From NCBI GenBank assembly GCA_036874045.1, contig CM072336.1:20269001-20333000 (forward strand): 64,000 nt of DNA. The letters are read 5' to 3'. Origin of the DNA: Cymodocea nodosa (lineage: Eukaryota > Streptophyta > Magnoliopsida > Alismatales > Cymodoceaceae). The notes under the pieces are model-generated. The model was not told where the DNA came from. It worked only from the letters and a program-made list of their open reading frames with translations, and searched no databases. Positions 10,166-48,563 of this stretch are shown one piece after another. Both the position numbers and the translations under genes were made by a program. Positions within the stretch are counted from its first letter, which is position 1. Every line of letters begins with the position of its first letter.

Positions 10166-10201
10166 GTTTTTTTTTTTTTTTTTACAAACGTCTATTTCTT
10201 A

Positions 10202-16147: not shown

Positions 16148-16277
16148 TTTGGGTTGTTAAGTTAAATCTTAAACTTGTATAATTTGTTTTTATGCTTATA
16201 TTAATAATTACTTTTCGAAGTAAACAAACAACCTTTTACACAAATTAGATATTAATTCCAATTTATATTTTTAACTG
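16148..16277 (-). mobile_element. Diverged GypA-type LTR 3'-end fragment
   Basis: About 130 bp, TGTTTGGG at its outer edge on the plus strand, ending ...TTTTTAACTG. It parallels the first ~155 bp (plus strand) of the adjacent LTR at 16278 but is clearly diverged. It appears to be an older LTR, cut where GypA1 starts. The continuation that should begin AACTG on the far side is not found at 30523. Confidence 0.6.
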
Positions 16278-18526
16278 TGTTTGGTTTTCCCACCACTACA
16301 CTAGAAAAACTTGGATTTGTTACTTCTATTTTTACTTAGTTAATTTATCTTTATGCTTATTCTTTCTTTTAGAAGTAAACAAATGACCTTTAATACAATT
16401 TAGATATTAATTCCAATTTGTACTTTAACTGCAAGTGCACAGTGTCTATTGTATTAGTGTGCAAGTACAGGTCCATCCCACAGGGAATTGCTGAAGAACT
16501 TGAGAACTGTTCGTTTGTTAACAATCAAATTGATATATTCAATAAGCTCTCAATTGAATTACAGTTAACTCAACGGACTAAGTTCGTTGAGTTATGGCTA
16601 ACTCAACGGACTAACCTCGTGGACTTAAGTTAACTCCACGAGCTTGTCTTTTCTTTCTAATACTGCTATTATAGAGGAATTCGGCTAACCATTGGGCGAT
16701 TCCATAGATTGTAAATAACATCAATTAAGCTCTTTAATGCTAGTTAACATTGGATTTATCATTAAGCAATATTAACATTTAGATAATTCAAACAGTAACA
16801 ATTAAAATCTTTAAGTCATTTGAACGAACCAATTTCAGTAAACTGTAAAACTAAAATAAACATAAAACAATTACAACACTCACAAAGATAACATTAATCA
16901 CGATACAATACAAACAATACAATACTCAAATACAACATACAAACATAGATAAATTGTTTTTGGTATTTTTGTTTTAATATGAACATGGAAATGGGCGAAA
17001 GGTGAAATGTAAAGTAATCTCACTTGATAGTAAATATTTTCGACACTACTTGAAACGCGATTACACCACTGAAAATTAAACCACTTACAATTCTGTCTCC
17101 TCTCCCTATAGAATTGCGAGTCTAGAATTGCAAGATGATCTCCTCTTCAGCATACAGGCATCAACCCGAAGCCAAGGCTAAAAGCTTTACAATCTCCTGA
17201 AATATGAGTCGGCGCTTGGTGAAAATGACTTCCCTTCCCGCGTCGCGATCACTCCTCACAGTGGTTGTCAGGCACTGTGTTTGGCTCGGAATCGACCCGA
17301 TATCAGGCAAGTATCCTCACAGACCTCCGATGGTTGGTGATTATGGTGGTGATGATGATGGTTGGTGTGGTACTTCAGAGAATTGCGACGTCGATCCTCC
17401 TCTACACACATTGTCCGCCCATCGATCACACTCTTCTTCTTTTTTCTTCTTTTCTTTTATATTTCTTTAGTAGTAACTGCTTCTATTTGAATGGTCGGTT
17501 TGATTTCCTTCATTCGTATCAACGGTGATGATTTCTTTCCTTGCGCGATACGTGCAAACGTGTTTTTCTCTTCCAACTATTTGTTCCTGCAACCACTACA
17601 GTGGCATATTAGAAAATATAAAGAAATAAGATGCTAACATAACGCGTTACCTTAGTATATATTCATGTAACTCAACGCGTACAGTTATGCTAACTTAACG
17701 AGTTAAACATGTGCATCTCACGTGATATACTAAAGCATTTAAATTCAACACGTGCATAAATTTAACTATCCGATGCTCAGGTGCATTTTAGATATTTATA
17801 AATTTAACTATCCGATGCTCAGATGTATTTCGGATAGTTACAAATAACTCACCGATATATAACTTAAGTAAATCTACCAGATCTAGACACGTGTCAACAG
17901 CAGTTTAATCATAAAATAACATTTCGAAGAGTTACAGGTCTAACTATCTGATACTCAGATGTATTTCGGATAGTTATAGATAACTCACTGAAAATCCACT
18001 GAAGTCACTTTCCCAGAACATGACATGTGTCCTCAGCTATTTTATAAATAATAAGAGATTTCAGAGAGTTACAGGGATAACTATTCGATGCCTAGCTGCA
18101 ATTTTGGATAGTTATAGATAACTCACCGAAAGTTCACTTAAGTCATTCATTATGGTTTCGACATGTGTACTTTAGGAAATAATAAAATATTTTCTCAAAA
18201 CATAACCATTCAGTAATTTAAACATAACTATCCGATACATGTTCGGTCTGTTAAACATAACTGTCCGAATATGTTCGGTATGTTAAACATAACGGTCCGA
18301 AATATCAGAAAATTTGGATACTTAAGAATTTCACAGCCTGCAACTTACCGACAGTTCATAAATGTACTAAATTAACATTAATTTCCCCAATTTAAGCAGA
18401 TTCTTCAATTAAAGCATATAACAGTACAATTATAACATAATGGCTTAATGCTTATATGATAAGCTAAATATTATGCAATTAACCATCATTTAACCATTAA
18501 TAATATGCACTTTTTCATTCTAAACA
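16278..18526 (-). mobile_element. GypA1 3' LTR
   Basis: 2,249 bp, bounded by TGTTTGGTTTTCCC at 16278 and CATTCTAAACA at 18526 on the plus strand. It contains type B hairpins (16555-16640), the antisense ORF (17204-17470) and a type A array (17700-18330) with CACGTG/CATGTG boxes near 17891, 18028 and 18160. It is longer than its partner, partly through a local duplication near 17757-17840. Confidence 0.93.
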
Positions 18527-18548
18527 CTTCCCCCATACCTAAATTTTG
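18527..18548 (-). other. Polypurine tract of GypA1
   Basis: On the minus strand AAATTTAGGTATGGGGGAAG runs directly into the LTR start TGTTTAG. This is the expected plus-strand primer position. Confidence 0.85.
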
Positions 18549-21769: not shown

Positions 21770-21955
21770 CGAAGTAACCTCGTTGAGTTACAGAAAACTC
21801 AACAGAACATAGTCGGTTACTATTGCTAACTCCACAGACTAACTTTGTTGAGTTACAAATAACTCAACAGAGTAATCTTATATTATATTACTGACCTCGT
21901 GGAGTTACGTTTAACTCAACGGACTTACTTCATTGAGTTAACACTTGGCAACTTC
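21770..21955. repeat. Hairpin array type B upstream of F-box ORF
   Basis: Three or four inverted repeats (CGTTGAGTTA, TTGTTGAGTTA or CGTGGAGTTA facing TAACTCAAC) lie 300-480 bp upstream of the F-box ATG at 21475. The rest of 21476-22374 is AT-rich spacer collinear with 4458-5426 in GypA2. Possible promoter array. Confidence 0.75.
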
Positions 21956-22374: not shown

Positions 22375-24594
22375 TTAATCTCTATGCCTAAGTTCATCTC
22401 CTTCCTTCTAGAGTTTTTCTAATTGAAGCTCTAATTGATTAATCCTCTCTACTGCTTCTATAATTCCACCAGAAGGTACAGCTAGTTCTGTAGCTACAAA
22501 ATTTCTATATTCTTTCACTGAAATGGTTCTAGATCTTATCCTTTTTGATGTCCATTTCGTGAAATCGATATAGTCCACCATCAGTAGTGGAATCAAATCT
22601 CCATAAAATAATTTTTTCTTCACTGTTTTCAGCTTGGAGATAAAAACTGCAAACCAATTTATTTGGATCTTATTTACAATTGCATATGTGGCCCATTTGA
22701 CAAATTGACTTAATTCTATGTCATGGCCCTGTCGTTGATAGACATTCTTAATCAGAATGTTAGCTACCAAGTGTGCTTTACCATTTAAATGCTTCAATTT
22801 GTTTAATAATGACACACTATGATTGATAGCTAAACAATCCTTAATTTGCTGTTCAGTCCATTCAACTACAGTTGTATCTTCCAAAATTGTTATTCCGTTA
22901 TTCTTTAAACCAAAAATGTTGTGGAGAAGCTCTAGTGTTATCTATACATCAGCTTCCTCCACGTTGGAAATTAATCCTCTTTCTCCTTCTCTTAAATTTG
23001 CATAAAAGCAGGGCACTAAATTCTCATATACTGCATGCCCTCTTTCTTGAGAAATGAATTGCAGTAGACCTTGGAATTCAAATAAATCTTTGATTTCTTG
23101 CATTCCATCCCAATTTACTGGTCTACTGTAAATAATGTCGTAACCCCTTATTTCTTGGTATTTGGTATAAGCTTCCTGACTACAAAAATGTACTTCATTC
23201 AAAATTGTTGTTTCAGTCAGGTCAGGAAGGTGACTTTGTTGCTCCAGAGGGGTTTGCTCTTGTTCTTCCTCTTCTATAGGCTGCATTTGAATATTTTCTA
23301 CAGATTCTTGAATTTCTGTTTCTGTTTGTGGTGGTGAGCCAGTAGAACTCTCCACTCTATCTTGAATTCTCTCCATAAATTGCTGAAGAGTTTCTTGTTC
23401 TTTAGTGGAATCTGTAAAATTATTTTTGTCCAAATGGCTTATTTTAGTCTCTTCATTTTCTACTCTTTCTTTTTCCCCCTGACTACCAATCTGTTCTATT
23501 ATTGTTCTTTCTGATTCTGTAACAGATTGAGATGGAGTCACGGGCAATTCAGTTTCTACCCTAATTTCTGTTTCTTCTTGTACAGACTACAAACTAATTT
23601 CAGCCTGATTTTCTTCTTTTCTTTGCTCCTACTATTGTAGCTCCTCCTACTCCTCCTCAGAATCGAATAGTAGGTTAATAAAAATCTGCTCCACAGGCCC
23701 TGTAAAAATTGGTACTTCAGATTTAATTTCCTCATATTCAAGCACTTTTTCTTTTCCTTTCTTTTTTCTGATTAGTTGTGCCTATTCTTCCTCTTCATCT
23801 ATTGAAATTAAATCTACAAAAGTAGGCTTTGCAGGCCTTCGAGCCATAGGTACTAGCTCTTCCTGTTTAACTTTTTTTATAACTGCTGGTCTCGAAGGAC
23901 CAGCTTCATCTCCTTTTGCAGTAGGTTTGGCAATAGCTTCTTGATGTTGTTCCACTTTGATTTTATATTGGGCTTTCAACTTTTCTGCAGCCCTCTTTTT
24001 GTAAAGTGCATTAAACACTAGGTGTGCTTTAGCCATTGCCAAATCTTCTGATTCTCCTTGGTTTTTTCCAACTTGAACTAGTTCTTCAAATTCTCTTATT
24101 TCTTCTTCGTTTGAAGGCCCCATAATTACCAACCTTTCTAATGGTTTAGGAAGTGGATTTGAAGGTCCAGGCTGCTGCTCCTCAGGAATAGGTCTTTCAG
24201 CAGTCGGCTCCTCTTGTCCTTCAGTTGCCTCTTCTTCATTTTTTTTCCTTTCTTGCTCCTATATCACCCATTTAGCTCGTCTATAGATTCGTCTTTTGAA
24301 CCAGAGCCGGGACTTACGTTGGATTAATTCTAGGGCTACTTCATTGTTTGGCCGTATCTTTCTTTCTTTACTTATTGCAATTTCAGTTGCCACTCTAATT
24401 CGTGTCTCCATTATCTATGGTATCTGTATTTCTAACTCAACCAAAATTTTTCTCAAGTTAAAGAGTTCTAATTCTACCTTTTGTAGCTCTTTCTCTCTTG
24501 TTGTATTTCTGATCTTTTGCCTCGTGTGCTATTCTTCAGATTCCTTCAGAAACTGTGCGGTGTCCATTGCCTCTTCCCAGAATTTAGGTTTCAT
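22375..24594 (-). pseudogene. GypA1 accessory ORF, homologous to CopA accessory ORF
   Basis: 740 codons in one register from ATG (24592-24594) to TAA (22375-22377), with no frameshift but ten in-frame stops, all TAG. The N-terminal ~150 residues are Lys/Arg/Glu-rich and coiled-coil-like. The middle (~250-420) is acidic and Ser/Thr/Gln-rich. The C-terminal third holds the conserved block: PVNWDGM (near 23110), GLLQFIS, VYENLVPCFYANL (near 23010), LLHNIFGLK, HLNGKAHLVANIL (near 22780), GHDIELSQFVKWATYA, INW, YGDLIPLLMVDYIDF (near 22560). I suspect the family of Pfam's putative plant transposon protein domain (PF20167), but could not search. Ungapped hand alignment to CopA gives about 37 of 88 identical residues. 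It sits where Athila elements carry an env-like gene, but no signal peptide or membrane helix is evident. Role unknown. Confidence 0.8.
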
Positions 24595-24779
24595 CTTCCT
24601 CATCATGGAGTTACACAACAGCACGGTATCGCTCTGATTTCTATTGTTCTAGATTCTAAATGATTTGCTAGATAATGCCCCTAAAACCATAGGTTTTAGT
24701 TTAAATAAGCCCTAAGTTTAGGTGGGTAATCGGGTCATTTCCCGAACCAACTATTACTATTTTATCCGAGGTCTTAGCT

Positions 24780-24885
24780 ACAGTACTCCGTTGAGTTACA
24801 GTTAACTCAATGGAATAAGCTCGTTGACTAACTCAAGACTCAACGAAGTAAGCTCGCTGAGTTAAGCGTAACTTAACGGACTCCC
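24780..24885. repeat. Hairpin array type B upstream of GypA1 accessory ORF
   Basis: CCGTTGAGTTA facing TAACTCAATGGA, then GACTCAACGAAG and GAGTTAAGC...TAACTTAACGGA, 190-290 bp upstream of the accessory ATG. Equivalent to 9650-9820 in GypA2. Confidence 0.7.
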
Positions 24886-24934
24886 CGTACAAGCAAATAT
24901 AATAATAAAAATATTACAGAGAATAGTTTTTCTA

Positions 24935-25130
24935 TTTTTTTATCGGCTTAACCGATACTATGTTTCGGTCAAACCTAAATATATATATATATATATATTT
25001 TTTCAGTTGAACCAATACTATGTTTCGGTAAAACCAACCTTTTTTTTGAAAATTAGTATACATATTTTTTTATGTTCCGGTCATACCGATGGATCCAATC
25101 GGTTGAACCGCAACGATTTTTATATTATAT
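24935..25130. repeat. Hairpin array type C and TA-microsatellites
   Basis: Copies of CGGTTGAACCG and diverged partners (CGGCTTAACCGA, TTTCGGTAAAACCAA, CCGGTCATACCGA), separated by TA-runs, between the pol stop at 25190 and the type B array. Same position and motifs as 9900-10165. Confidence 0.65.
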
Positions 25131-25189
25131 ATATATTTTTAATATATATATTTTTATATATATATATAAACATAAAAACTGATTTCTTA

Positions 25190-27575
25190 CTAAGTAAAGC
25201 TCGAGTAGTCCTCTACTCTGACTTCTTCCATAATTCCAAAGGAGCTTTTTGGTATTTTCAGAATAGGTTTAAGTCTTTGTCCATTTACTTTAAATATATT
25301 CTAATTTTTAGGATTTTCAATTTCAATAGCTCCATAAGGATAAATATTTCGAACTATGTAAGGTCCTGCCCATCTAGATTTCAATTTTCTTGGATGGTTA
25401 TGGAGTCTAGCCATATAAAGATATTCTTCTTGTCCTATTTCAAAGCTTTTAGGAATAATTTTTCTATCATGCCAAAATTTAATTTTTTCTTTTTCTCTTA
25501 CAGTCTTCGAATAAGCTTCATTTCTAAATTCTTCTAATTCAATTAATTACATTTTTCTATTTTCAGTAGCTTGATTTAAATTAGTGTTCAGAGTTTTTAA
25601 TGCCCAATAAGCTTTATGTTCTATTTCAACAGGTAAATGACAACTTTTTCCATATACTAGCCTAAAAGGTGACATACCTAAGCTCATTTTATAAGCAGTT
25701 CTATAAGCCCAAAGTGCATCTATCAATCTATTAGCCCAATCTGTTCTAGTAGGATTTACTACTTTTTCGAAGATTAATTTAATTTGTTTGTTTGCACTTT
25801 CTACTTGTCCACTTGTTTGCGGATGATATGATGTTGCAATTTTGTGGTTTACTCCATATTTCTTCATTAAGGCTTCAAAACTTCTATTACAGAAATGAGT
25901 TCCTCTATCACTAATAATAGCTTTAGGTATTCCAAATCTGGCAAATATATTTGTTCTTATAAATTGTATTACCACTTTGTTATCATTAGTTTTTGTAGGA
26001 ATAGCTTTTATCCATTTAGATACGTAATCTACCCCCAACAATATGTAATTAAATTGATTAGACATAGGAAATAGACCCATAAAATCTATTCCCCACACAT
26101 CAAAGATTTCAACCTCAACAATAGGATTAAGAGACATCATATTCCTTTTTGATATTCTTCCTATTTGTTGACATCTTAAACAACTTAAGCAATATTTATG
26201 TGCATCTTTGAATAGTGTTGGCCAATAAAACCCACATTGCAGAATTTTTGCAGCAGTTTTCCCTAAACCAAAATGCCCTCCACAAGCTTGGCCATGACAA
26301 AAAGATAATATGCTCAGATGTTCAGCTTCTGTAACACACCTCCTTAAAACCAAATCAGGACATTTCTTAAATAAGTATGGGTCTTCCCAATAGTAATATT
26401 TTACTCTTGAGAAAAACAATTTCTTATCCTGTCTACTCCAATCCTTAGGTGTTAGACTAGTAACTAAGTAATTAACTATGTCTGCATACCAAGACATTGT
26501 GTTGATGGTCATTAATTGTTCATTAGGAAAATTATCCTTAATTTCAATATTCGATTTTTCTATTTGTAATCTTGATAAATGATCTACTACTACATTCTCC
26601 CAACCTTTTCTATCTTTAATTTCTAGATCAAATTCTTGCAATAATAATATCCATCGGATCAATCTAGGTTTAGTTTGTTTTTTCTTTATTAGATGTTTTA
26701 GAGCTGAATGATCCGTGTATATTATTACTTTAGCTCCAATCAGATATGATATAAACTTTTCTTAAGCAAACACAACAGCTAATAATTCTTTTTCAGTAGT
26801 TGTGTAATTAACTTGAGCATCATTTAAGGTTTTGCTTGCATAACGAATCACTCTAGGAGATTTTTCTATCTTCTGTCCTAACACTGCTCCTACAGCAAAA
26901 TCAGAAGCATCGCACATTAATTCAAATGGATGGTTCCAATCAGGTGCTTGAATTATAGGAGTTGAAATTAAGTTAGTCTTAAGTCTGAAAAATGCTTCCT
27001 TGCAATTTTTATCAAAGTTAAATGGAACATCTTTTAATAGACTAGTTAAAGGTCTAGCTATCTTGCTAAAGTCGTTAATAAATCTTCTATAAAAACCAGC
27101 ATGTCCTAGAAATGATCTAATATCTTTTACTGATTTAGGTTCTAGTAGATTAGAAATTACTTCTATTTTAGCTTTATCTACTTCCAACCCTTTCTTAGAA
27201 ACAACATGCCCTAAGACTATTCCTTGTTTAACCATGAAGTGACATTTTTCCCAATTTAAAATCAGATTTTTTTCCACACAGCGTTTTAATATTTGGTCTA
27301 AATTGCTTAAGGAAACTTCAGATGAGTGGCCATAAACAGTAAAATCATCCATAAATATTTCTAAGAAATCTTCAGTCATTCTAGTAAATATGCCCTGCAC
27401 ACACCTTTGAAAGGTAGCTAGCGCATTGCATAATCTGAATGGCATTCTCTTAAAAGCATAAGTTCCATTAGGACAGGTGAAAGTTGTTTTCTCTTGATCC
27501 TCTAATGCTACTGGAATTTGATTATACCCTGAATACCTGTCTAGGAAACAAAAATATTTTTGCCTTGCTAATATT
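25190..27575 (-). pseudogene. pol: GypA1 pol: partial RT, RNase H, integrase
   Basis: One register from the deletion junction at 27575 to TAG at 25190-25192, with only three internal stops (TAA near 26760, TAA at 25547, TAG near 25301). RT begins at LARQKYFCFLDRYSGYNQ (motif A aspartate intact), then MPFRLCNALATFQRC and FMDDFTVYG. RNase H carries LMCDASDFAVGAVLGQ and [12 protein letters not shown]. Integrase has the zinc-binding [10 protein letters not shown]...[10 protein letters not shown] (26160-26300), the DDE residues in [16 protein letters not shown] and GQVESANKQ, and the C-terminal GPYIVRNIYPYGAIEIENP. Catalytic residues are preserved better than in GypA2, but the RT fingers and protease are missing. 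Confidence 0.88.
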
Positions 27576-27657
27576 CTCTTGCATTAGTATTTTCTGTTTA
27601 AATACTCTTGCATTAGTATTTTCTATTTAAATACTCTTGCATTAGTATTTTCTATTT
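27576..27657 (-). repeat. 29-bp tandem repeat (2.8 copies) at a deletion junction
   Basis: Plus-strand unit starts CTCTTGCATTAGTATTTTCT; units start at 27576, 27605 and 27634. It encodes repeats of ENTNARVF derived from the ENTNA segment of ORF1 (compare 16075-16090 in GypA2). It sits exactly where ORF1 is fused to mid-RT, replacing about 1.7 kb present in GypA2. Confidence 0.8.
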
Positions 27658-28204
27658 GCTGTATATTTTACAAATTATGCAGGTTTATAACATTATAGTT
27701 TTCGTTGTCCTGTTGCATAACTTGTATTTTCATTGTATATTCATCTAATGCTTTTAATTTTATTTCCAGATCATCTAATTTCATTGCATTCAATTTTTGA
27801 TCAATTTTCATTATGGTTTTTTCAGTTTCGTAAATTATATCCTTTTTAGGTTCTGAATATGCTTCCTTATAGTTTAATTGATTGACTTCTTGTTGTTGAC
27901 ACACAAAGTATTCCAGTTTGTCCAGATTTTTCTCTATACTATGCTCCAGTCTGTCATACCTATCCCAAACTTCTGTGTCTCTCAATATATTACACATTCT
28001 ATAATGACTATTAGTTGGGTAAACTATAGGATTCTCATACGCGGCTCTATTATACTGAGGATAATTCATTTGTTGTTCATGGAATCTAACCATCTGCAAA
28101 CGTCTCAGTTTCAAACAGTCAGATATGTCATGTCCTTCAGAATTGCAGAATTCACATATGCTAATTACAGATTTCAGAAATTTTTGAGCATAAGCATATG
28201 CCAT
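27658..28204 (-). pseudogene. GypA1 ORF1: short zinc-finger gag-like protein without capsid
   Basis: Starts at ATG 28202-28204 (MAYAYAQKF). A zinc knuckle CEFCNSEGHDISDC lies at residues ~18-31, then Tyr/Asn-rich sequence, then a Glu/Lys-rich coiled-coil-like segment (residues ~85-160) ending near a stop at 27668. It corresponds to the C-terminal half of Athila gag. The capsid domain with the FHGL...AYxFLxxF block is absent: only 115 bp separate the primer site from this ATG. Either the 5' gag was deleted or this family encodes its capsid elsewhere (compare the gag ORFs at 3114-4392 and 56567-59690). Confidence 0.65.
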
Positions 28205-28275
28205 ATTCTTAATTACAGAAGAAAACACACAACTCTAGCTATTAAAACGAAACAGTTCTAACAGTTACTTATGTT

Positions 28276-28320
28276 AATTCAATTCAATTCTATTCAGTTC
28301 AATTCAATTCAATTCAATTC
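28276..28320. repeat. (AATTC)n pentamer repeat in the leader
   Basis: About nine AATTC-like units directly downstream of the primer site in the GypA1 leader. Confidence 0.9.
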
Positions 28321-28336
28321 CCTAGCAACAATGCCA
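28320..28336 (-). other. Primer binding site of GypA1, degenerate tRNA-Asp type
   Basis: Minus strand TGGCATTGTTGCTAGGG, 7 nt inside the LTR end. It differs from the Athila-type TGGCGCCGTTGCCGGGG only by C-to-T and G-to-A transitions, so it looks decayed. Confidence 0.75.
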
Positions 28337-28343
28337 TAAAACT

Positions 28344-30523
28344 TGTTTGGTTTTCCCAGCACTACACTAGAAAAACTTGGATTTGTTACTTCTATTTTTA
28401 CTTAGTTAATTTATCTTTATGCTTATTCTTTCTTTTAGAAGTAAACAAACAACCTTTAATACAATTTAGATATTAATTCCAATTTGTACTTTAACTGCAA
28501 GTGCACAGTGTCTATTGTATCAGTGTGCAAGTACAGGTCGATCCCACAGGGAATTGTTGAAGAACTTGAGAACTATTCGTTTGTTAACAATCAAATTTAC
28601 ATATTCAATAAGCTCTCAGTTGAATTACAGTTAACTCAACGAACTATGTTCGTTGAGTTATGGCTAACTCAATGGACTAACCTCGTGGACTTAAGTTAAC
28701 TCCACGAGCCTGTCTTTTCTTTCTAATACTGCTATTACAAAGGAATTCAACCAACCATTAGGCGATTCCACAGATTGTAATTAACATCAATTAAGCTCTT
28801 TAATGTTAGTTAACATTGGATTTATCATTAAGCAATACTAACATTCAGATAATTCAAACAGTAACCATTAAAATCTTTAAGTCATTTGAACGAACCAATT
28901 TTAGTAAATTGTAAAACTAAAATAAACATAAAACAATCACAACACTGACAAAGATAACATTAATCACGATACAACACAAACAATACAACACTCAAATACA
29001 ACATACAAACATAGATAAATTGTTTTTGGTATTTTTGTTTTAATATGAACATGGAAATGGGCGGAAGGTGAAATGTAAAGTAATCTCACTTGACAGTAAA
29101 TACTTCTAACACTACTTGCAACGCGATTACACCACTGAAAATTAAACCACTTACAATTCTGTCTCCTCTCCCTATAGAATCGTGAGTCCAGAATTGCAAG
29201 ATGATCTCCTCTTCAGCATACAGGCATCAACCCGAAGTCAAGCCTAAAAGCTTTACAATCTCTTGAAATATGAGTCGGCGCTTGGTAAAAATGGCTTCCC
29301 TTCCCGCGACGCGATCACTCCTCACAGGGGTTGTCAGGCACTGTGTTTGGCTCAGAATCGACCCGACATCAGGCAAGTATCCTCACAGACCTCCGTTGGT
29401 TGGTGTGGTACTTCAGAGAATTGCGATGCCGATCCTCCTTTGCACACACTGTCCACCCATCGATCACACTCTTCTTCTTTTTTCTTCTTTTCTTTTATAT
29501 TTCTTAAGTAGTAACTACTTCTGCTTGAATGGTCGGTTGAATTTCCTTCATTCGTATCAACAACGATGATTTCTTTCCCTACGCGATACGTGCAAACGTG
29601 GTTTTTCTCTTCCAACTGTCTGTTTCTACAACCGCTATAGTGGCATATTAGAAAATATAAAGAAATAAGCTGCTAACATAACACGTTACCTTAGTATATA
29701 TTCATGTAACTCAACGCATACAATTATGCTAACTTAACGAGTTAAGCATGTGCATCTCACGTGATATACTAAAGCATTTAAATTCAACACGTGCATAAAT
29801 TTAACTATCCAATACTCAAATGCATTTCGGATAATTACAAATAACTCACCTATATATAACTTCAGTAAATCTACCAGATCTGGACACGTGTCAGCAGCAA
29901 TTTAATCATAAAATAACATTTTGGAGAGTTACAGGTCTAACTATCCGATACTCAGATGCATTTCGGATAATTATAGATAACTCACCGAAAATCCACTTAA
30001 GTTACTTTCCCAGAACATGACACGTGTCCTCAGCTATTTTATAAATAAAAAGAGATTTCGGAGAGTTACAGGGATAACTATCCGATGCTCAGCTGCAATT
30101 TCGGATAGTTATAGATAACTTACCGAAAGTTCACTTAAGTCATTCATTATGGTTTCGACACGTGTACTTCAGGAAATAATAAAATATTCTCTCAAAACAT
30201 AAATGTTCGGTAATTTAAACATAACTATCCAATACATGTTCGGTTTGTTAAACATAACTGTCCGAATATGTTTGGTATGTTAAACATAACTGTCTGAAAT
30301 ATCAGAAAATTTAGATACTTAAGAATTTCACAGCCTGCAACTTACCGACAGTTCATAAATGTACTAAATTAACATTAATTCCCCCAATTTAAGCAGATTC
30401 TTCAATTAAAGCATATAATAGTGCAATTATAACATAATGGCTTAATGCTTATATGATAAGCTAAATATTATGCAATTAACCATCATTTAACCATTAATAA
30501 TATGCACTTTTTCATTCTAAACA
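28344..30523 (-). mobile_element. GypA1 5' LTR, flanked by both primer site and polypurine tract
   Basis: 2,180 bp with TG...CA ends. Type B hairpins at 28620-28710, antisense ORF 29270-29569, type A array 29750-30340 with palindromic GACACGTGTC boxes near 29882 and 30019. To the left is the primer site (28320-28336). To the right (30524-30545) is a polypurine tract identical in layout to that at 18527, so this LTR also served as, or was converted from, the 3' LTR of a second, now lost, element. Confidence 0.92.
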
Positions 30524-30548
30524 CTTCCCCCATACCTAAATTTTTCTT
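30524..30548 (-). other. Orphan polypurine tract and junction to CopA LTR
   Basis: Minus strand ...AAATTTAGGTATGGGGGAAG next to the LTR at 30523. Within about 25 bp it passes into a CopA LTR truncated in its middle (AGATATCTTGCCAC, compare 41119). A deletion joined the two. Confidence 0.75.
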
Positions 30549-31450
30549 AATAGATATCTTGCCACAAAGATTAGTCAATTAATAATAGTTGCAGTTTCTG
30601 TAAAAATAAAATCTTCGGAGGCTTTCCGAAAATCGGAAACTTAGAAGGATAACTTGCCGAAACTCAAAAACATTTCGGATAGATAGAACTAACATTCCGA
30701 AAGACTACTTAAGTCATGTATTAAAATTGAAACACGTGTCCTAAAACAGCGTTATAAAATATTAAAAATAAACTATCCGATAGAGTGGACGTGTTTCGGA
30801 TACTTATAAAGATAACTCTCCAATCCTTAAGTCATTTTGGATAGTTACACAGGTAGCCTTCCGAAAAGTCACTTAAGTCAGAAAATAATAGAAAACTCAA
30901 CCATCCAAAGTTTAAAACAGTTTTCAGATACTTACTGAAGATAACTCTCCGATTCTTAAGGGTTTTCGGATAGTTACATCGTAACCTTCTGAAAAGTCAC
31001 TTAAGTCAAGCGATGAGAGACTGACACGTGTCCTTCAGAAGAAAGTAACTGAAAATATATTAAAACAGAGAAACAACTAACTCTCCAGAATAAAAACCTT
31101 AACTATCCGAAACCAAAGGGATTTCGGAGACTTACCATAAAAATCATATCCGGACATAAAAAGACTTAACTCACCAAAGATAAATACTTTTCGGATAGTA
31201 ATTGATATAACTGTCTGAAAAGCCAAGAGAGAGAGACATAACCATCTGATTTGTTCGGTGACTTATAAAATAACTCTCCGATCAATACACTGTAGACAAA
31301 ATAACCTGCTGAAATCTAATTTAAAAGATTTTAGGTACATAGTAGTTAGCCAAAATTCATTTGAGTAAAAAGGTATCTAAAATATGGCAGAAATAATTAA
31401 ACCACACATTTTTCATCATCAAAATTAACTAATAAATAATTGAACTAACA
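30549..31450 (-). mobile_element. CopA 3' LTR, truncated
   Basis: About 900 bp matching 41119-42019. The 5' edge (minus strand TGTTAGTTC) is at 31450. The remaining half (matching 40300-41118) is missing. It contains a type A array (30640-31290) with CACTTAAGTCA boxes about 130 bp apart (near 30871 and 31001) and CACGTG near 30730 and 31024. Confidence 0.9.
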
Positions 31451-31475
31451 ATCTCCCCCTTTTCGATGATGACAA
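31451..31475 (-). other. CopA polypurine tract
   Basis: Minus strand CGAAAAGGGGGAGAT immediately before the LTR start TGTTAG, typical of plant copia elements. The stretch 31476-31761 to its left in element order is AT-rich 3' untranslated sequence without a gene. Confidence 0.88.
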
Positions 31476-31761
31476 AACTGTAAATAGATATATTCTCCCG
31501 CTTTGTCAGAATTAAAAAGTGGAGACAAGTGATTAAAGAATACTCGGAGATAAATAAAATGTAATTTCATTGAATCAAGAGTAAGAACAATAGAGATACA
31601 TAAAAAATGAAAATTACATCAAAGGAAAAACAAACAAATTAAGGTGTAATTGACTTTTTATGTAACAATTCTTAAATTAAGTTATCCCTCTTTCTCAGAA
31701 GTTGTTTTAAATGAGCCACTTGATCCAAAAGCATTTGAATATGCTGAAGTAGAAGCTTATT

Positions 31762-33807
31762 CTATTTTAGGAGGGCCTTAGAACTGTCAACTACTGAAAA
31801 TGAAGCTGTTGGAGCTGGAGGAGGTGTTGTAGGAGGTGAAGTTTCTACAGAAGGAGGTACAACAGGAGGTGGATGTTTTGCAAAAGGAGAAGCTGAATTT
31901 TGAGTTGTAGATGGTTGAAAATGAGAGGGCAACTCAACCGGATCAGAAGATGACATTCTCTGAAGATCCTTTAGTTGTAATACTCTTCTTTTAATGGATT
32001 TCAGAGGCTTGCCTGATAAATCAATGTATCTGGCCATTAGATGATAAATAAAATCTCCATAGTATAGAAAACTTTGTAGATGAGAAATCTAAGCAATAAT
32101 AACTTTTGCCCAGTTAACCTTGATACCATCCATCACAGCATAAGTGGCTTGGTAAACTTTCCTTTCCAATTCATCTGCATGACCAATCTTCTGAAATACA
32201 GAGATAGAGAGAATTGTAGCAATCATCTGGGCCAAACCATTTAGATGTGTAGTCTTAACTAACTTGAATTTTCTATCAAGAGAATTGCCAATCAATTTAT
32301 TTATCTCGGATTCCTACCACCCAAGCTCTAATGGAGAAAGAGCACTATTGATACCAGTAGATGCTATTCCAAATAGATTCTCCAAAAAATCTCCATCAAT
32401 TCTTATTGTTTGATTTTGGAGGTGTAGAAGACAAAAATGAGGAAAAATCTCAAGGTTGGGGTAGAAAAGCGGAATTAGGTATTCAAAAACAGATAACCCT
32501 AAGGGGGAAGAGATAAGACCTAAAAGCCCTTAATGAATTAGCATACTATGAATCGAATTCATTCCTTTAAAATTTACAGGTTTGTTGTAAAAAATCTTCA
32601 TGTCCTAATATTTATTAAAAAAAAGATCCTTAGCTGTAGAGGATCTGAAATAATATACATTTGTAGGGATGTCTGAAGAAAAATTGACTTCAACCTCTAG
32701 ATCTTCATTTGCGGGAGGGTTTGCAGAAGGAGGAGGAGATTGAGGAGCAGAAACAAAACCTGAATCTTCATACAATCCTTGTATTACCATTTGAGTGTGA
32801 GGAGAAAGAATTGGATGAGATTCTACATTAGATGAAGGAAGAGGAGGTGTGAATTCTTCTTTATGTACAAGCAAAGATTGAGCAAAACTCAGATGAGAAG
32901 CAAGGGCTTTCTTTCTTCTCCTAGAGTAAGTAAATGAAGTAGATGGAAGGGGAGAGGAGACAACTGTAGGCAAAATTGGACAAGCTGAGGAGATCAAATG
33001 AGAAGGACCAGGAGCAATTTGGTGTAGAATTCCAATACATAACTCAGGAATTGGAGGATATGAACGGCCAACCACATGCTTGAAATCAATTCCTTTCTAT
33101 GGCAAAAAGAATTCAGGTTCAGCCACTGATTTCTTCTTCTTTGCCATATCAAAAAAATCATGAAGACAAGCAGGCTCTAGAATTTTAATTCCTAGTTGCT
33201 CACTGATTTTATGCAATAATGCTTGATTTCTCCTCTTGACTAGAGTATCTTGTAAATGTAGGGCCATATGTAATGCACGTTTCTCAAATGCCCTAGTATC
33301 CTCAAAAGTATTCAAAAATTGGCTAACATAAGCCTCATAAACTGATTTAAATTGAGGTTCTAAGGAGTTCACTTTAGTAGTAAATATGTCTTCATCATCC
33401 GAAGAAGAATCCTTAGAAACCCTAGTATCAACACAATCTATTTTATTGCTTTGTGAAGCATGCGTAGAAGTGGTCTTCAATTTCTTATGACCAGTAGAAG
33501 TTTTGGTGTATTTTCTCGAGGAAGGCTTCTTGGTTTTCAAATGTTTTCCACTTTTAACACTAGTGGTAATAGGATGAAATTTACGAAGAACAAACAACTA
33601 TTTCTCCAAACATAATAATCGAGTAACTATTTCTGAAGTGCCATATACTGACTCAATATCAATAACCTCTTCTCCGGCAGAAATAATGAGTTGAGCTTTT
33701 CCAGGAGAAAGATCTGCCATACCTGTCTAGAGATCTTGTTCCATTCTTTGAATCCGTTGTTCTTCCTCTTGCAGAGAAAGGGCAGAAAAACGTTTAGATG
33801 AAGCCAT
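31762..33807 (-). pseudogene. CopA accessory ORF, homologous to GypA accessory ORF
   Basis: 682 codons (stop included) in one register from ATG (33805-33807) to the stop at 31762. No frameshift, seven in-frame stops (six TAG, one TAA). Residues ~1-70 are Glu/Gln-rich. 70-190 are Lys/Ser-rich with a DSSSDDED acidic patch. 190-330 are Pro/Ser-rich. The conserved block then matches the Ty3 accessory ORF: KPVNFKGM (near 32580), GLLGLIS, VFEYLIPLFYPNL (near 32450), LENLFGI, THLNGLAQMIATIL (near 32230), GHADELERKVYQATYA, VNW, YGDFIYHLM...YIDLS (near 32030). The extreme C-terminus is Pro/Thr-rich (PPTTPPPAPT). It sits between RNase H and the polypurine tract, where SIRE-like copia elements carry extra ORFs. 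No transmembrane helix was seen. Function unknown. Confidence 0.8.
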
Positions 33808-33869: not shown

Positions 33870-34140
33870 TAGAGTGAGAAGATAACCCTCCGAAAGTATA
33901 TAAAAATCAGAAAGTTCCAGAGATTGGTGAGTTAGAGGCCTAACTTATCGAAAGAAAAGAATTTTCGGATAGTTACAAGATAACTGTCCGAAAAAGAAAT
34001 AAGGCATAAGACAATAACTTACCGAAAACTAAGAAGTTTTTGGATAGTTACAACATAACTGTTTTAAAAACCCTTAAGACAAAAAGACTAACTCTCCGAC
34101 GACTACCAGCACCTAACCAGGTAAAGAAAATAACTCTTCC
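33870..34140. repeat. Hairpin array type A upstream of CopA accessory ORF
   Basis: At least four inverted repeats (GGTGAGTTA, TTTCGGATAGTTACAAGATA facing ACTGTCCGAAA, TTTTGGATAGTTA) between 60 and 335 bp upstream of the ATG at 33807. This is the only type A array found outside an LTR in the window, and it lies in the promoter position of the accessory gene. Confidence 0.8.
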
Positions 34141-35404
34141 TAAAAATATGCTGACAAAAAAAACTTAAAATTGGGAAAATTAGACATATCAAAAAGAATA
34201 AACTCCCCTTGAATATATGAATAAAAGAAATCAGCAAAAAATAAATAAATTTGTTGAGGTATTTGTATTTTTATAATGTTTTTATTTTATATTTTGTTTT
34301 TTTTGTTTTGATTATATATATATATATAATTTTTTTTTTGATTAGATATATCGATATAAATATATATAAGTAGTTCTTGACTAAGAAAAAGAAAATTTTT
34401 GTTTTTGTTTATTTATTTATTTAAATTTTAATTGTGTGAGAATTATTGAATTATTCAAGTCTCCACATTAAGATAAATAACACATTTCACTTAGCATAAA
34501 GACTTGATCCTATGGTTCACCTTATTAACCTTAAAGAAATTAATTTTTATAAACTTCAGTGCTAGAACTTAATATTTTTAGAATAGAAAAATTTAGACAC
34601 ATTTAATATGTTCTCTCTAGCCAGTTTGAAATTTCCATGAAGCAACCCTAAGGTATATTTTCCCTTAACCATGTCTATTATGTAATTAACTAAGAAGAAA
34701 AGAAGATATTTAAGAATTATGAAACTGTTAGTACTGCATAGCCATAATCGGAGGTTTTTTTTTTGTTGACAATATTGGTGTTGGTTGCTCTTTGCAACAA
34801 ACATTCCATTTTTATTTTATTTTAATGGCAATCACTTTGATAGTACTGAAAATGGGAAAGTGTAGAAAGTTAAAAACATTTAGACAAGGTTAGGTTAAAT
34901 ATCTTGAGTCTTCTTGCTTCCAACCACTTTTCCTTATTTTTTACCCTCACATATGAAATACCTCTAAATTTTCTAATCAAGAAACATTCAGTCTAGCAAA
35001 TAGGCATACAATCACTGAATTAATTAAGGTAACTTGGCTATTTTCAGATTTAGATCCCCATTCTAAGTGTCATGTGGGCATTATTCTATGTGTGGAGTAG
35101 AAGCCTTTAGTAATTTTGATGAATTAATCTGAGTTGATTTTAATATAGATGTAAGAAATCATTGTAACTTATAAACTCAGTAGAAAATCATCTCAAGAAG
35201 AGTGTTGGTAGAGATGTTTTTGTTTTAAAATTTGAAGAAAAATAATTTGTAAATATTCTCAAGAAATAACTTAAAATAAGAATTAGACAGAAATAGATTA
35301 TCAAACTAACTCAATATAATTAAAACAGATAATAGAAAATAAGATGGTGAAGTAAATATAAAAGAAATAGAAGATAAAAGATAATAGGTAAAGCTAAAAA
35401 TCAT
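34141..35404 (-). other. CopA spacer between RNase H and accessory ORF
   Basis: AT-rich (TA- and T-runs near 34300-34430). Short frames, such as 34562-34804 (-), resemble nothing known to me. I see no supported gene. Confidence 0.6.
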
Positions 35405-36750
35405 TTAGGCAGCATATTCCTAAATCTCTTCTCAATTTGATAAACTATTTTTCTTCAAGAGGCTTTGTAAAAATATCTGCCAACTGCTCATGAGTAGAAA
35501 CAAAATTCAGCTCAATGTTATCCTTCATAACATTATCTCTCAAAAAATGGTGTCTTGTCTCAATATGTTTTCCCGAGAATGCAACACAAGGTTCTTTGGC
35601 AAACTTATTGCACTATTACTGTCACAATTAATAGGGGTTTTTCCATATGTAATTTCATAATCTTTCATAGTTTATTTCATCCAAAGAATTTGTGCACAAC
35701 ATAGGACAGCAGCAACATATTCAGCTTCAATAGTTGAAAGGGCAATACAATTCTGATTCTTACTGAACCAGGAAATTAATGAATTGCCAAACAATTGGCA
35801 ATTCCATTAGTACTCTTTCTATCAGATTTGCATCCAGCATAATCAGCATCATTGTATCCAATTAGATTCAAACTGCTATCTTTGAAATACATTAAACCAA
35901 AATTTAAAGTTCCTTGTAGGTATTTCATTATCCTTTTAACTGCAGATTGGTGAGATTCTTTTGGTTGAGCTTGAAAATGAGCATAGGCACAAACACTGAA
36001 CATGATATCAGGTCTAGATGTAGTTAAATAAAGAAGAGAACCTATCATTCCTCTATATTTAGTAATATCAATAGCTGGTCCAAATTCATCTTTATCCAAT
36101 TTAATTGATGAACTCATAAGAGTGCCTGAGGACTTGCAGTTACTCATTCCAAATTTTTCTAAAAGTTACTTTGTATATTTTTCTTGATATACAAAAATTC
36201 CTTTTTCAATTTGTTTAATCTGCAATCCCAGAAAGAATGTCAACTCACCCATTAAACTCATCTCAAACTGATTTTTCATTTGATTTGCAAACTTATTACT
36301 TAAAATCTCATTAGTTGCTCCAAAAATGATATCATCTACATAAATCTGAACAACTAACAAACCTAGATGATTTTTCTTAAAGAATAAGGTATTGTCAACC
36401 TTACCAATAGAAAAACCATTATCTAATAGAAAGGATTTTAGCTTATCATACCAAGCTCTCGGAGCTTGTTTCAACCTATACAAGGCCTTCTTCAATTTGT
36501 AAACATGCTCAAGAAAATCAGCATCAGCAAAACTAGGTGGTTGCCTAACAAAAACTTCTTCTTTAATGAAACCATTTAAAAATGCACTTTTAACATCCAT
36601 TTGATATAGTTTAAAATTCATATGAGCAGCAAAAGCTAGAAAAATTCTAATAGATTCTAATTTAGCTACAGGTGCAAAGGTTTCTTCAAAATCTATTCCC
36701 TCCTTTTGGTTATACCCTTGGGCTACTAGTCTGGCCTTATTTCTAATTAC
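35405..36750 (-). pseudogene. pol: CopA reverse transcriptase and RNase H
   Basis: RT (copia type) 36166-36750: [38 protein letters not shown] and the catalytic [10 protein letters not shown] box near 36310-36340. It continues to 35776-36147 with TSRPDIMFSVC and the RNase H ADYAGCKSDRKSTNG. The remaining RNase H (ALSTIEAEYVAA, then [13 protein letters not shown] residues) runs with stops and a frame change to about 35405. Stops after YTK (TAA, 36166) and after AIH break the frame. Confidence 0.88.
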
Positions 36751-38440
36751 CTATCCTGATTCATCAGATTTATTCTTAAATATCCATTTAGTCCCAATAA
36801 TTAAATGATCTAGAGGTTTAGGAACTAAGTCCCAAACTTCATTTCTTCTAAATTGATTAAGTTCTTCTTGCATGACACTAATCCAAAATTCATCATTTAA
36901 TTCCTCATCAATGTTTTTAGGTTCAATTTTAGATAGAAATGCATAACACCTGGAAACATTAATCCTAGATCTTGTTTGCACACCTTTAGAAATATCACCA
37001 ATAATAAACTCCTTAGGATGTTGAGGCAAAAATTTATGAGTCAAAGGGTTGTCATTTCTTTCTTGACCCATGGTACTAGATTCTCCAATATTTAGTTCAT
37101 CACATTCATAATCGGAAGTATCAGTAATTTCTTTTGAAGCATTACATGGCTCTTCATCAAAATTTACATGCATAGATTCTTTAATAGCCAAAGAAATTTT
37201 GTTATAAATTCTATATGCTTTACTTCTTGAAGAATATCCCAAAAATATACCTTCATCAGATTTTGCTTCAAATTTATCTTTATTCTCTTTTGTATTCAAA
37301 ATAAAACATTTAGATCCAAAAGCTTTAAAATAATGAACTTTAGGAATTCTTCCCATCCATAGTTCAAAAGGAGTCTTATTCATGTCTCTTCTTAGGGTTA
37401 CTCTATTTAAAATATAACATGTAGTACTAACTGCCTCAGCCCAAAAATAATAAGCAACCTTGTTTTCATTCAGCATAGTTCTAGCCATTTCTTGAAGAGA
37501 TCTATTCTTTCTCTCTACAACTCCATTCTGAGAAGGGGCTATAGGAAAGGCAAATCTATGTTCTATTCCTAGATCTTGGCAAAGTTTTTCCATATTTTCA
37601 TTTTCAAATTCCCCTCCATGATCACTCTTAATTTTCTGAACTTTCAATTGCTTTTCATTTTGAACCATATTCAGAAAAATTTTAAACTCCTCAAATACTT
37701 CACACTTATGTCTAAGAAATATTACCCAAGTATATCTTGAAAACTCATCAACTAGAACAAATACATATCTCTTACCACCTAAACTTTCTGTTCTAGTAGG
37801 GCCAAATAAATCCATGTGAATTAATTCCAAAATTCTTCTTGATATAATTTGCTTTCCTGATTTAAAAGAACTCTTCTTTTGTTTTCCCAATTCACATGCA
37901 TCATAGATTTTATCCTTTTTAAATTTCAAATTTGGTAAACCATCTACTAGGTTCTTCTCAGCTAACTTATCTAGCTGCTTCATATGAATATGACCTAGTC
38001 TACGATGCCATAACCATGCATTATCTAAATTATTTGCAATTAAATAGGAATTAGTGGTAGAAACATCATCAGGTATATTTAGAAAACATACATCATTTCT
38101 TCTATGAGCAGTAAATTTAACTTCATTAGAATTTTCATCAATAACAAGGCACTTCTTAGATTTAAACAAAACCATATAACCTTTATCTTCTAACTGAGTA
38201 ATGCTAATTAAATTATGCTCTAAATTTTCAATTAGTAAGACATTATCTATAACCATTTTATCATTTACATAAACAGATCTGATACTAATAATCTTACCTT
38301 TTTGATCATTGCTAAATCCGACATTTCCTCCATCAATCATCTTCAGGTCTTTTAGGACAGATTTATCTCCAGTCATATGCTTTGAAGCACCATTGTCCAT
38401 CACCCATCATGATCTTTTAGTTTTGACCTGCAAGTGTAGT
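36751..38440 (-). pseudogene. pol: CopA protease end and integrase
   Basis: 550-codon open stretch. The protease active site reads WVMDNGASKHMTGD (Ser of the usual DSG replaced by Asn), preceded by an in-frame TGA near 38405. GAG-pre-integrase zinc region: LWHRRLGHIHMKQLDKL, then YDACELGK, in which the first Cys of the usual CxxC is Tyr. Integrase core: HMDLFGPTRTES (D), KSDHGGEFEN (D) and NGVVERKNRSLQE (E), all present. The tail has the FWAEAVSTTCYILNR and FKAFGSKCF segments and the junction WDLVPKPLDHLIIGTKWIFK towards RT. It ends at TAG (36751). Confidence 0.9.
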
Positions 38441-40299: not shown

Positions 40300-42019
40300 T
40301 GAAAAGATCGAATGGCACACTACAGGGGGATGAATAGTGTCCTAATAAAGTTATTTTGCTTTTAAAAAATTCGAAAGCTGTTCACACTAATGAACCCTGA
40401 TTAATTGATTTTAGAATTAAAACTAGTAAAGCAAAAAGTAAGGAACACAAAGAGATTTATAGTGGTTCCCCAAACTAGGTAGTCCACTCCTCAAGGCCAC
40501 AACCTCGAGAATTCCACTAAGTGCTTCTAAGGCTAAGCACAAACCTTAAACAAGTTGCTTTTGCAGGCTAAGCAACAACCTTACAGATGTTTTTAAAGGT
40601 TAAACAAAAACCTTACACAAAGCACCAACTTTGTGTACTCAAGACCCCAATCTTGAGCAAGTGAAGTATCACACTTTACTCTCTTCACCAAGGCCCCAAC
40701 CTTGTGAAGGTATACTCACAACACCCTTGTGAGTTAAAGTTTTAACACAAAAGAGACAACAGTTTAAAACCAGGAGTCACAGACTCAAAATGAACACAAC
40801 ACATAAGACTAGATCAACTCCAATGAAGAGTTGACATAGAAGCTCTGAGGAGAATTCTTGATTGATCTGCAGCTATTGATCTTCTGGACTTTGTTGCAAA
40901 TGAATCTTCAAAGTGTTTGCAGAATTATTGAGCAGACAATTTCTCCTTTTGAGTGATGAAAATTTCTGTGTATCTCTTTTAGTTTTCTGCAAAATCCTTT
41001 TTATTTTTCCTTTGAGATTTGCATAAGTGGAAAAAATTCTAAAATGGTTAGATGCCTTATGCAAGAATTCATTTTCGGCAACATTCAATCATAATAAAGT
41101 TGAGATTTGCAATCAAAAGATATCTTGCCACAAAGATTAGTCAATTAATAATAGTTGTAGTTTCTATAAAAATAAAATCTTCAGAGGCTTTTAGAAAATT
41201 GGAGACTTAGAAGGATAACTTACCGAAACTCAAAAACATTTCGGATAGATAGAACTAACATTCCAAAAGACCACTTAAGTCATGTATTAAAATTGAAACA
41301 CGTGTCCTTCTGAAATAGCATTATAAAATATTAAAAATAAACTATTTGATAGAGTGGACGTGTTTCAGATACTTATAAAGATAACTCTCTGATCCTTAAG
41401 TCATTTCAGATAGTTACATAGGTAACCTTTCAAAAAGTCACTTAAGTTAGAAAATAATAGAAAACTCAACTATTCGAAGTTTAAAACAGTTTTCGGATAC
41501 TTACTGAAGATAACTCTCCGATTCTTAAGGGTTTTCGGATAGTTATATTGTAACCTTTCGAAAAGTCACTTAAGTCAAGTGATGAGAGACTAACATGTGT
41601 CCTTTAGAAGAAAGTAACCGAAAATATATTAAAATAGAGAAACAACTAACTCTCTAGAATAAAAACCTTAACTATTTGAAATCAAAGGAATTTTGGAGAC
41701 TTACCATAAAAATCATATCTGGACATAAAAAGACTTAACTCACCAAAGATAAATACTTTTCGGATAGTTACTGATATAACTATCTGAAAAGCCAAGAGAG
41801 AGAGACATAACCATTCGATTTGTTCGGTGACTTATAAAATAACTCTCCGATCAATACACTATAGACAAAATAACCTACCGAAATCTAATTTAAAAGATTT
41901 TAAGTACATAGCAATTAGCCAAAATTCATTTGAGTAAAAAGGCATCTAAAATATGGTAGAAATAATTAAACCACACGTTTTTCATCATCAAAATTAACTA
42001 ATAAATAATTGAACTAACA
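40300..42019 (-). mobile_element. CopA 5' LTR
   Basis: 1,720 bp, TGAAAAGATCG at 40300 to GAACTAACA at 42019 on the plus strand; the solo copy at 57471-59193 confirms both edges. A type A array occupies 41200-41890. The part near 40480-40740 has short direct repeats around CAAGGCC/AACCTT. Confidence 0.93.
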
Positions 42020-43248: not shown

Positions 43249-43430
43249 CTTACCTTAGATTTTTCAACCTATTTGATTTTAAATAGTCTAAAACAATAAA
43301 AACAATTTGAGCCTTAAATCGAGAAGGTTAAGAGTATGCTCACATATCAATTTCTGTTTAAAAACAATAAAGGTAGAATAAGCAATGATATTAAATAAGT
43401 TGGTATCGATTTTATATCAAAGATTATTAA

Positions 43431-43446
43431 TAAAGCTTTGATACCA
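43431..43446 (-). other. CopC primer binding site, tRNA-iMet type
   Basis: Minus strand TGGTATCAAAGCTTTA next to the LTR end at 43448. Confidence 0.85.
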
Positions 43447-43447
43447 C

Positions 43448-48480: not shown

Positions 48481-48563
48481 TAACGCTTTTATATGTTGTT
48501 AAATTAACGGCAAAAGCACAAATTTTACATTTATAACCGCAAGCACACAGTGCCCATTGTAAT
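48481..48563. mobile_element. Short LTR-like fragment
   Basis: About 80 bp containing GCAAGCACACAGTGCCCATT, related to the GCAAGTGCACAGTGTCTATT segment found near the 3' end of GypA LTRs but diverged. It is cut by the CopB LTR at 48564. Confidence 0.5.

Follow-up and report, generated by a model that had tools for sequence, protein, structure and literature searches.

An accessory domain and palindromic box arrays common to copia and gypsy retrotransposons of Cymodocea nodosa

How do retrotransposons of two different superfamilies come to carry what looks like the same extra gene? The question is raised by a 64,000-nucleotide stretch of the Cymodocea nodosa genome (GenBank assembly GCA_036874045.1, contig CM072336.1, positions 20,269,001 to 20,333,000; hereafter ‘the window’), in which a Ty3/gypsy element, GypA1, and a Ty1/copia element, CopA, each bear a long accessory open reading frame (ORF) downstream of pol (Table 1). 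A first-pass annotation had described the two ORFs as one homologous gene of 680–740 codons, lying after pol and before the polypurine tract (PPT), and had concluded that it was either transferred between superfamilies or captured in parallel from one gene family. The contrast in pol on which that conclusion leaned is readily seen with Pfam, the integrase (INT) preceding the reverse transcriptase (RT) in CopA but following RT and ribonuclease H (RNase H) in GypA1.

Both ORFs lie where they had been placed, on the minus strand and in one frame each, with 740 codons and 11 stops in GypA1 and 682 codons and eight stops in CopA (final stop included), and the nine motifs listed for them all occur in the same order. 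A hand alignment of 88 ungapped residues with about 37 identities could not be reproduced, the best ungapped block giving 26 identities over 57 residues; the similarity itself, however, persists under direct sequence comparison (as distinct from profile–profile comparison). Pieces bounded by stops yield four collinear BLASTP matches (E = 1e-13, 6e-6, 4e-6 and 6e-4), and the window domains, with stops written as X, align with 74 identities and 126 positives over 230 positions (130 bits, E = 6e-42), some 54–56 standard deviations above shuffles. Naturally open GypA and CopA copies from elsewhere in the genome, compared without crossing any stop, share 75 of 221 residues (120 bits, E = 3e-37). 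Taken together, the E values, the shuffles and this match between open copies rule out chance similarity, and the two C-terminal domains are almost certainly homologous. This holds for the C-terminal ~230 residues only: the N-terminal 468 residues of GypA1 and 385 of CopA show no similarity to each other (z = -0.9), so that the proposed homologous gene of 680–740 codons stands for its C-terminal part and falls for the remainder. The proposed placement likewise survives in part; both ORFs follow pol, but that of GypA1, sitting 1 kb past INT and ending 3.8 kb from the 3′ long terminal repeat (LTR), is not at the PPT. The end of the CopA ORF at 31762 is a stop particular to the window copy. Nine of 19 copies with a recognisable tail are open across the 40 codons preceding the equivalent stop, from which we see that the frame continues into a coiled-coil-like tail (~31675–31761); in at least two of these nine, a stop falls within the tail.

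The wider genome (374.6 Mb; each search scored the best 150 candidates, the first-look candidate counts of 10506, 447, 10678 and 9676 not being copy numbers) shows the ORF to be an integral part of CopA-type elements. Our sample of 20 copies (L029–L048), made up of the top 19 by score outside the window plus one divergent copy, out of 150 scored, is 59–87% identical over a 163-residue accessory piece. A copia RNase H lies ~2.1–2.6 kb upstream on the same strand in 16 of them, and in 18 the CopA LTR starts 1606–1663 bases after the start of the piece. Within the ~8.5 kb examined per copy, none of the 20 has a gypsy RT or INT match; the gypsy accessory query finds its best match on the CopA domain in 15, on a neighbouring fragment in four and nowhere in one. 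On the other side, gypsy INT is found upstream of the gypsy accessory ORF in four of five genome copies, as well as in two window copies. Separately, we observe that C8:9682959-9750543 holds dozens of CopA-type accessory pieces on one strand with a period of about 988 bp, most units containing a 312-codon open frame; this is a satellite-like array derived from the accessory gene.

Joint descent would predict that INT and RT be about as similar between the two elements as the accessory domains, and they are far less so: the window integrases share 22.7% identity over 229 residues (41.6 bits), and the reverse transcriptases show nothing clear above shuffles (z = 0.96). Slower evolution of the accessory gene cannot explain this difference, because GypA1 and a second gypsy copy in the window are less alike in the accessory ORF than in pol. 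Their identity falls sharply at ~25185, just after pol, from ~0.90 to mostly 0.60–0.80 in the 3′ module, and synonymous divergence (dS) is 0.22–0.27 in pol, as against 0.76 and 1.41 in accessory segments; there are therefore separate histories within one gypsy family, the copies being mosaic. Much of the accessory ORF is nonetheless under purifying selection when these two copies are compared, the ratio of nonsynonymous to synonymous divergence (dN/dS) being 0.18 in the conserved domain and 0.15 in the far N-terminal part (225 and 193 codons), next to 0.30–0.31 in pol.

A third accessory family, Cop2, came to light through a fragment (L033:7841-8335) beside a CopA copy. A gypsy assignment for it (‘GypC’) was discarded, as the pol upstream turned out to be copia: RNase H is present in two of three copies probed (53% and 59% identity), one copy also has an RT 64% identical to that of CopA over 192 residues, and the third (L056) gives no pol match upstream. 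The naturally open Cop2 frame (L060) has 587 residues, and matches the accessory domain of GypA (80/227, 35%, 150 bits) and that of CopA (63/239, 26%, 93 bits). In all three families the hydrophobic heptad positions of the C-terminal tails are full or nearly full. Over 220 columns common to the three we count 75 identities for GypA–Cop2, 76 for GypA–CopA and 60 for CopA–Cop2, and in 10000 column resamples the first pair exceeds the last in 97.3% and the second in 98.3%. On these alignments the accessory domains appear least alike between the two copia families, despite the 64% identity of their RT, which is unlike vertical descent. Since the domain is also far more alike than INT or RT, descent from a copia/gypsy ancestor is rejected, and transfer between superfamilies or parallel capture, the alternatives originally posed, are indeed what the data require; very probably, the gene has passed between superfamilies. 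A fourth family (L039:8131-8487) is 49% identical to Cop2 over 102 residues.

The likeness extends to non-coding DNA. The top over-represented 8-mers of the GypA1 and CopA LTRs, found independently, fall in one motif, a palindromic box that occurs as two classes, T1 (TAACT[AC]TCCGA, one mismatch allowed) and T2 (TAACTCAACGR). The GypA1 LTRs contain 13 and 11 copies of T1, those of CopA 11 and nine, and the CopA linker five (shuffle means 0.03–0.08); with up to one mismatch, none lies in the gag-pol or accessory ORF of CopA or in GypA1 pol. T2 is absent from the CopA LTRs. The 11-mer TAACTNNNCGA occurs 127 times in the window, against 0–2 times in five shuffles, and opposite boxes are spaced by 24–26 and 15–18 bases in CopA and GypA1 alike. 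When boxes are tallied over the 20 CopA copies, the 389 bases preceding the ORF hold 80 (19 copies), the next 1.1 kb six (three copies), the ORF itself none in any copy, and the LTR interval 193 (18 copies); that interval is a fixed one, 1645–2560, in place of mapped LTR ends. T2 clusters flank the gypsy accessory ORF on both sides in eight of eight loci, the window copy included; one-mismatch T2 counts take in TAACTCACCGA sites (e.g. 17845 and 18119) of the T1 array. In Cop2, the LTR-bearing stretch downstream of the ORF (L059) has 11 T2 boxes and is 87–91% identical to window positions 43448–45079 and 60203–61811, which have ten and eight; further T2 boxes lie about 400–570 bases upstream of the open frame. 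Over the whole genome the exact pair TCGNNNAGTTA-N4-TAACTNNNCGA is found 7137 times and its reversed control never. Among 50 such sites listed and read manually, 28 are T1–T1 (TCGG with CCGA), 16 are T2–T2 (TCGT with ACGA), six have another base at the class position and none mixes T1 with T2.

Longer modules are also shared. A stretch of the CopA and GypA1 5′ LTRs containing CACGTG, ACTTAAG and boxes aligns at 72% over 133 bases (E = 5e-15), and a 107-base piece of the Cop2 LTR stretch matches GypA LTRs at 79–82% (best E = 1e-24). For the fourth family, represented by one 1251-base stretch upstream of the ORF (L061), the expectation that boxes would be found there was fixed beforehand and held, with nine boxes at one mismatch allowed, three of them exact (shuffle mean 1.19); the same stretch contains the octamer AGGGGGAG, and its bases 47–360 resemble the GypA1 LTR module (E = 2e-34). 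These common non-coding modules, with the sharp mosaic junction after pol, favour exchange between elements over repeated capture of a host gene, and we regard such exchange as the probable history.

What might the gene do? VANC proteins of the Mutator-like VANDAL elements recognise and bind short motifs, nine bases long in the case of VANC21, and cause loss of methylation, also affecting an unrelated element that bears the motif (PMC5735166). In both systems we see an element-encoded protein with conserved and variable parts, and motif arrays in non-coding DNA with family-specific variants, tandemly repeated in VANDALs (PMC5735166), with few or no motifs in the coding DNA counted here; array size here also varies between LTR variants. 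VANDALs differ in being DNA transposons, with a DUF1985 domain and motifs in one orientation (PMC5735166), whereas the present gene belongs to retrotransposons, has no DUF1985 match and is accompanied by palindromic motifs. From this VANC-like anatomy we propose a box-binding regulator, a role that, argued by analogy, seems possible rather than probable. The joint reading, that one accessory gene was spread by exchange of 3′ modules and acts as a VANC-like DNA-binding regulator, we put forward tentatively, as falling slightly short of an even prospect. A 3′ module consisting of the accessory gene and its non-coding boxes would have been exchanged between Sirevirus-like copia and Athila-like gypsy elements, perhaps by template switching; the protein would dimerise through its C-terminal coiled coil; the dimer would bind the palindromic boxes in the LTRs of its own element and around the accessory gene; and binding would keep the element DNA expressible, by activation or anti-silencing in the VANC manner. 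In its strongest form, a portable cis/trans cassette of DNA-binding protein and target boxes would have been swapped between copia and gypsy with box class and protein co-diverging, which is conceivable, if doubtful. The GypA accessory domain does score higher with Cop2 than with CopA (150 versus 120 bits), GypA and Cop2 both having T2 around the gene; because identity in common columns is equal (75 versus 76), this co-variation is suggestive at most.

Several observations weigh against this reading. Box type and protein type do not correspond one-to-one: the GypA LTRs carry both T1 and T2, and in the common columns the GypA accessory domain is no more identical to that of Cop2 than to that of CopA. 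Judged by position, one T2 site falls inside the gypsy ORF itself, towards its N-terminal end, in five of eight loci. Boxes of the CopA linker are barely more conserved than the spacers between them (0.907 versus 0.871), and once boxes are masked, the best BLASTN match between CopA and GypA LTRs (36.3 bits) equals the best of the shuffles (36.3). T1 boxes also number 13 and 15 in L054 and L055, which belong to another copia LTR family, and in L054 the gap from RNase H to the LTR is too short to hold an accessory ORF. The incongruence with pol is modest and drawn from three families with no outgroup tree. The middle segment of the gypsy ORF (dN/dS 0.72) looks weakly constrained. DUF1985 is absent from the Pfam scans, in which HMMER filters drop weak matches, and AlphaFold2 gave no fold for a natural gypsy copy (12 alignment rows, pLDDT 41.9).

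Of the alternatives, the main rival to a regulator, and a serious possibility, if on the doubtful side, is that a host transcription factor recognises the boxes, which would then be unconnected with the accessory protein. CACGTG is a common plant factor core. Its presence in the shared module beside ACTTAAG fits such a factor, as do the boxes of L054, with no accessory ORF next to its pol, and the repeated LTR motifs described for Sireviruses without an envelope-like (ENV-like) gene (PMC2829016). It is harder to reconcile with two box classes that differ between families within one host, with clustering of the boxes at the accessory gene and not in the gag-pol stretches counted, or with the class agreement between the two arms at 44 of the 50 listed sites and the lack of T1/T2 mixes among them.

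Somewhat less likely, in our view, is parallel capture, in which Sirevirus-like and Athila-like elements each acquired genes from a single family, of host or DNA-transposon origin, and kept them for some role. The unrelated N-terminal halves and the equal identity of GypA to both copia versions speak for it, as does a weak match to PF20167 (Transposase_32), a family named as a plant transposon protein. The first-pass annotation had suggested a check against this family, and the link it shows is a distant one: frames of all three families match, but below the cut-off (best 26.7 against 45 bits). Across six naturally open frames the scores are 26.7 bits for GypA, 25.6, 19.8 and 14.8 for Cop2 and 20.3 for CopA (E = 6e-6 to 0.028), with no match for the CopA frame L018, nor for the family-four piece L039, so that the accessory domains appear to be distant PF20167 relatives only. 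Homologous-protein searches with two stop-bounded pieces gave no match, and scans of viral contigs found no relative. Against two captures stand the agreement in position, strand, coiled-coil-like tail and flanking boxes, and the non-coding modules common to the families.

That these are envelope-like genes serving cell-to-cell movement we consider highly improbable, in spite of their position after pol and the published label for Sirevirus and Athila 3′ ORFs. Hydropathy reveals no transmembrane-like stretch in either window ORF, both copies being broken: over stop-free windows the 19-residue Kyte–Doolittle maxima are 1.02 (gypsy) and 1.52 (copia), below the usual transmembrane threshold of 1.6. 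The few cysteines, the basic clusters resembling nuclear localisation signals and the boxes around the gene also argue against an envelope. Finally, the idea that the CopA ORF is a nested gypsy fragment, raised at the outset as what would undo the comparison and consistent with our recognising no target site duplication at the window CopA, is refuted by the carriage of the ORF in many CopA-type copies with copia RNase H upstream (16/20) at a near-constant distance from the LTR (18/20).

Parts of this picture are familiar from published elements. In Sireviruses (SIRE/Maximus) a sense ENV-like ORF lies between pol and a AGGGGGAG tract located 10 bp before the 3′ LTR, palindromic motifs are repeated in the LTR and again immediately before the ORF, and the Osr9 motif TTTTCGGACWTRTCCGAAAA resembles T1 (PMC2829016). 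CopA has the tract at that distance, and palindromic repeated motifs in its LTR and upstream of the ENV-like ORF; 17 of the 20 genome stretches hold at least two exact AGGGGGAG copies (linker copies). At the Sirevirus 5′ LTR/primer-binding site (PBS) junction, CA-ATTGG-TATCAGAGC, the comparison is ambiguous, TGGTATCAGAGC being absent from the window. CopA further departs from the Sirevirus description in the homology of its ORF to a gypsy ORF and in the presence of the same box type in gypsy LTRs. On the gypsy side, comparison of the putative GypA1 PBS, TGGCATTGTTGCTAGGGA, with a tRNA-Asp PBS gives agreement at 13 of 18 positions, the five differences all being transitions. Diaspora and Calypso, relatives of Athila, are described as using tRNA-Asp as primer (PMC1142308). 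Athila 14 of sunflower is likewise a gypsy element with an extra sense 3′ ORF related to PF20167 (PMC11728184); the PF20167 score here is below the curated cut-off, and that paper's account, as far as it is accessible, makes no tie to copia or to boxes. In bdelloid rotifers, ORF3 types are common to distant retroelement types, with other proteins and hosts and, in the accessible part of the account, no cis-acting boxes (PMC5408684). A large survey sorted the extra ORFs of copia elements into 45 groups and those of gypsy elements into 314, suggesting independent sources (PMC6317226). In the openly licensed literature, as far as its accessible text goes, we found no report of Sirevirus–Athila 3′ ORF homology or of boxes crossing superfamilies.

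The two LTRs of GypA1 are 91.5% identical by BLAST (K80 0.058) and those of CopA 92.9% (K80 0.072). A PPT-like sequence at 30526–30544 stands outside the GypA1 5′ LTR, adjoining CopA; this ‘5′ LTR’ may therefore belong, as the 3′ LTR, to a different element that has been interrupted. Between the accessory ORF of GypA1 and its 3′ LTR a 296-codon minus-strand frame (20310–21200), with a weak F-box-associated match (E = 0.007, below the cut-off), is possibly a captured host piece, and between gypsy pol and accessory ORF there is an antisense frame of 221 codons (24872–25537, plus strand) with no Pfam match. Just inside the 3′ LTR, 18671–19516 matches the end of Cop2 pol (L058:37-832; 71% over 864 bases, E = 2e-114), as would result from nesting of a copia piece or from recombination between copia and gypsy. 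At 1341–2899 and 12616–14414 lies a gypsy LTR variant that can be aligned with the GypA1 LTR but lacks most of the T1-array region; the latter copy retains three T1 boxes. The densest T1 arrays counted (24 and 23 boxes; 390–1340 and 48563–49670) lie outside the mapped GypA1 and CopA LTRs. LTR insertions at 7032–8794 and 45210–48362 break the second and third gypsy accessory copies, the third surviving as fragments at 45082–45258 and 48351–48499. At L052, a truncated gypsy INT has seven T1 boxes next to it, probably those of an inserted LTR.

Table 1. Positions in the window of the elements, accessory ORFs and box clusters discussed in the text.
Feature	Position	Strand	Basis or remark
GypA1 accessory ORF; C-terminal conserved domain 22477-23190; coiled-coil-like C-terminus	22375..24594	-	Sequence comparison; tail seen in related copy
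CopA accessory ORF; conserved domain about 31942-32619	31762..33807	-	Frame reaches about 31675 in other copies
CopA accessory gene, coiled-coil-like C-terminal tail	31675..31761	-	Cut off by stop in window copy
Second gypsy copy, accessory domain (70% identical)	5547..6236	-	Pol of that copy 10194-12581
Mosaic junction, GypA1 versus second gypsy copy	25036..25186		Pol side ~0.90, 3′ module mostly 0.60-0.80
T1-type palindromic boxes directly upstream of CopA accessory ORF	33883..34099	.
T2-type palindromic boxes (TAACTCAACGR) upstream of GypA1 accessory ORF	24788..24879	.
T2-type boxes downstream of GypA1 accessory ORF	21780..21940	.
GypA1 pol, with RT and RNase H at 26762-27583 and the RNase H end plus integrase at 25547-26761	25547..27583	-	Pfam
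GypA1 3′ LTR; T1 array 17763-18324; T2 cluster 16566-16641	16273..18547	-
GypA1 5′ LTR; T1 array 29802-30297; T2 cluster 28632-28707	28340..30544	-
CopA pol, whole, ending in stop 35394-35396	35394..38406	-	Pfam and sequence
CopA Pol beta-barrel domain, gag-pre-integrase, integrase	36751-38406	-	Pfam
CopA RT, then RNase H end with ADIFTKPL	36166-36750 (RT)	-
CopA 3′ LTR; 11 T1 boxes (up to one mismatch)	30549..31451	-
CopA 5′ LTR; nine T1 boxes	41115..42020	-
CopA PPT AGGGGGAG	31453..31460	-	Start 10 bp ahead of 3′ LTR TG
Cop2 piece, with a copia gag domain at 42475-43254 and, at 43448-45079, an LTR stretch bearing T2 boxes (88-91% to L059)	42475..45079
Inverted relative of Cop2 LTR stretch	60203-61811

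With a domain that crosses superfamilies and a box code in common, both origin and function become open to direct test; the combination also leads away from an envelope role. If the proposed reading is true, the ‘envelope’ genes of Sirevirus and Athila would together form a single family of anti-silencing regulators, elements lacking such a gene could make use of boxes that belong to others, and different retrotransposon superfamilies would exchange regulatory modules.

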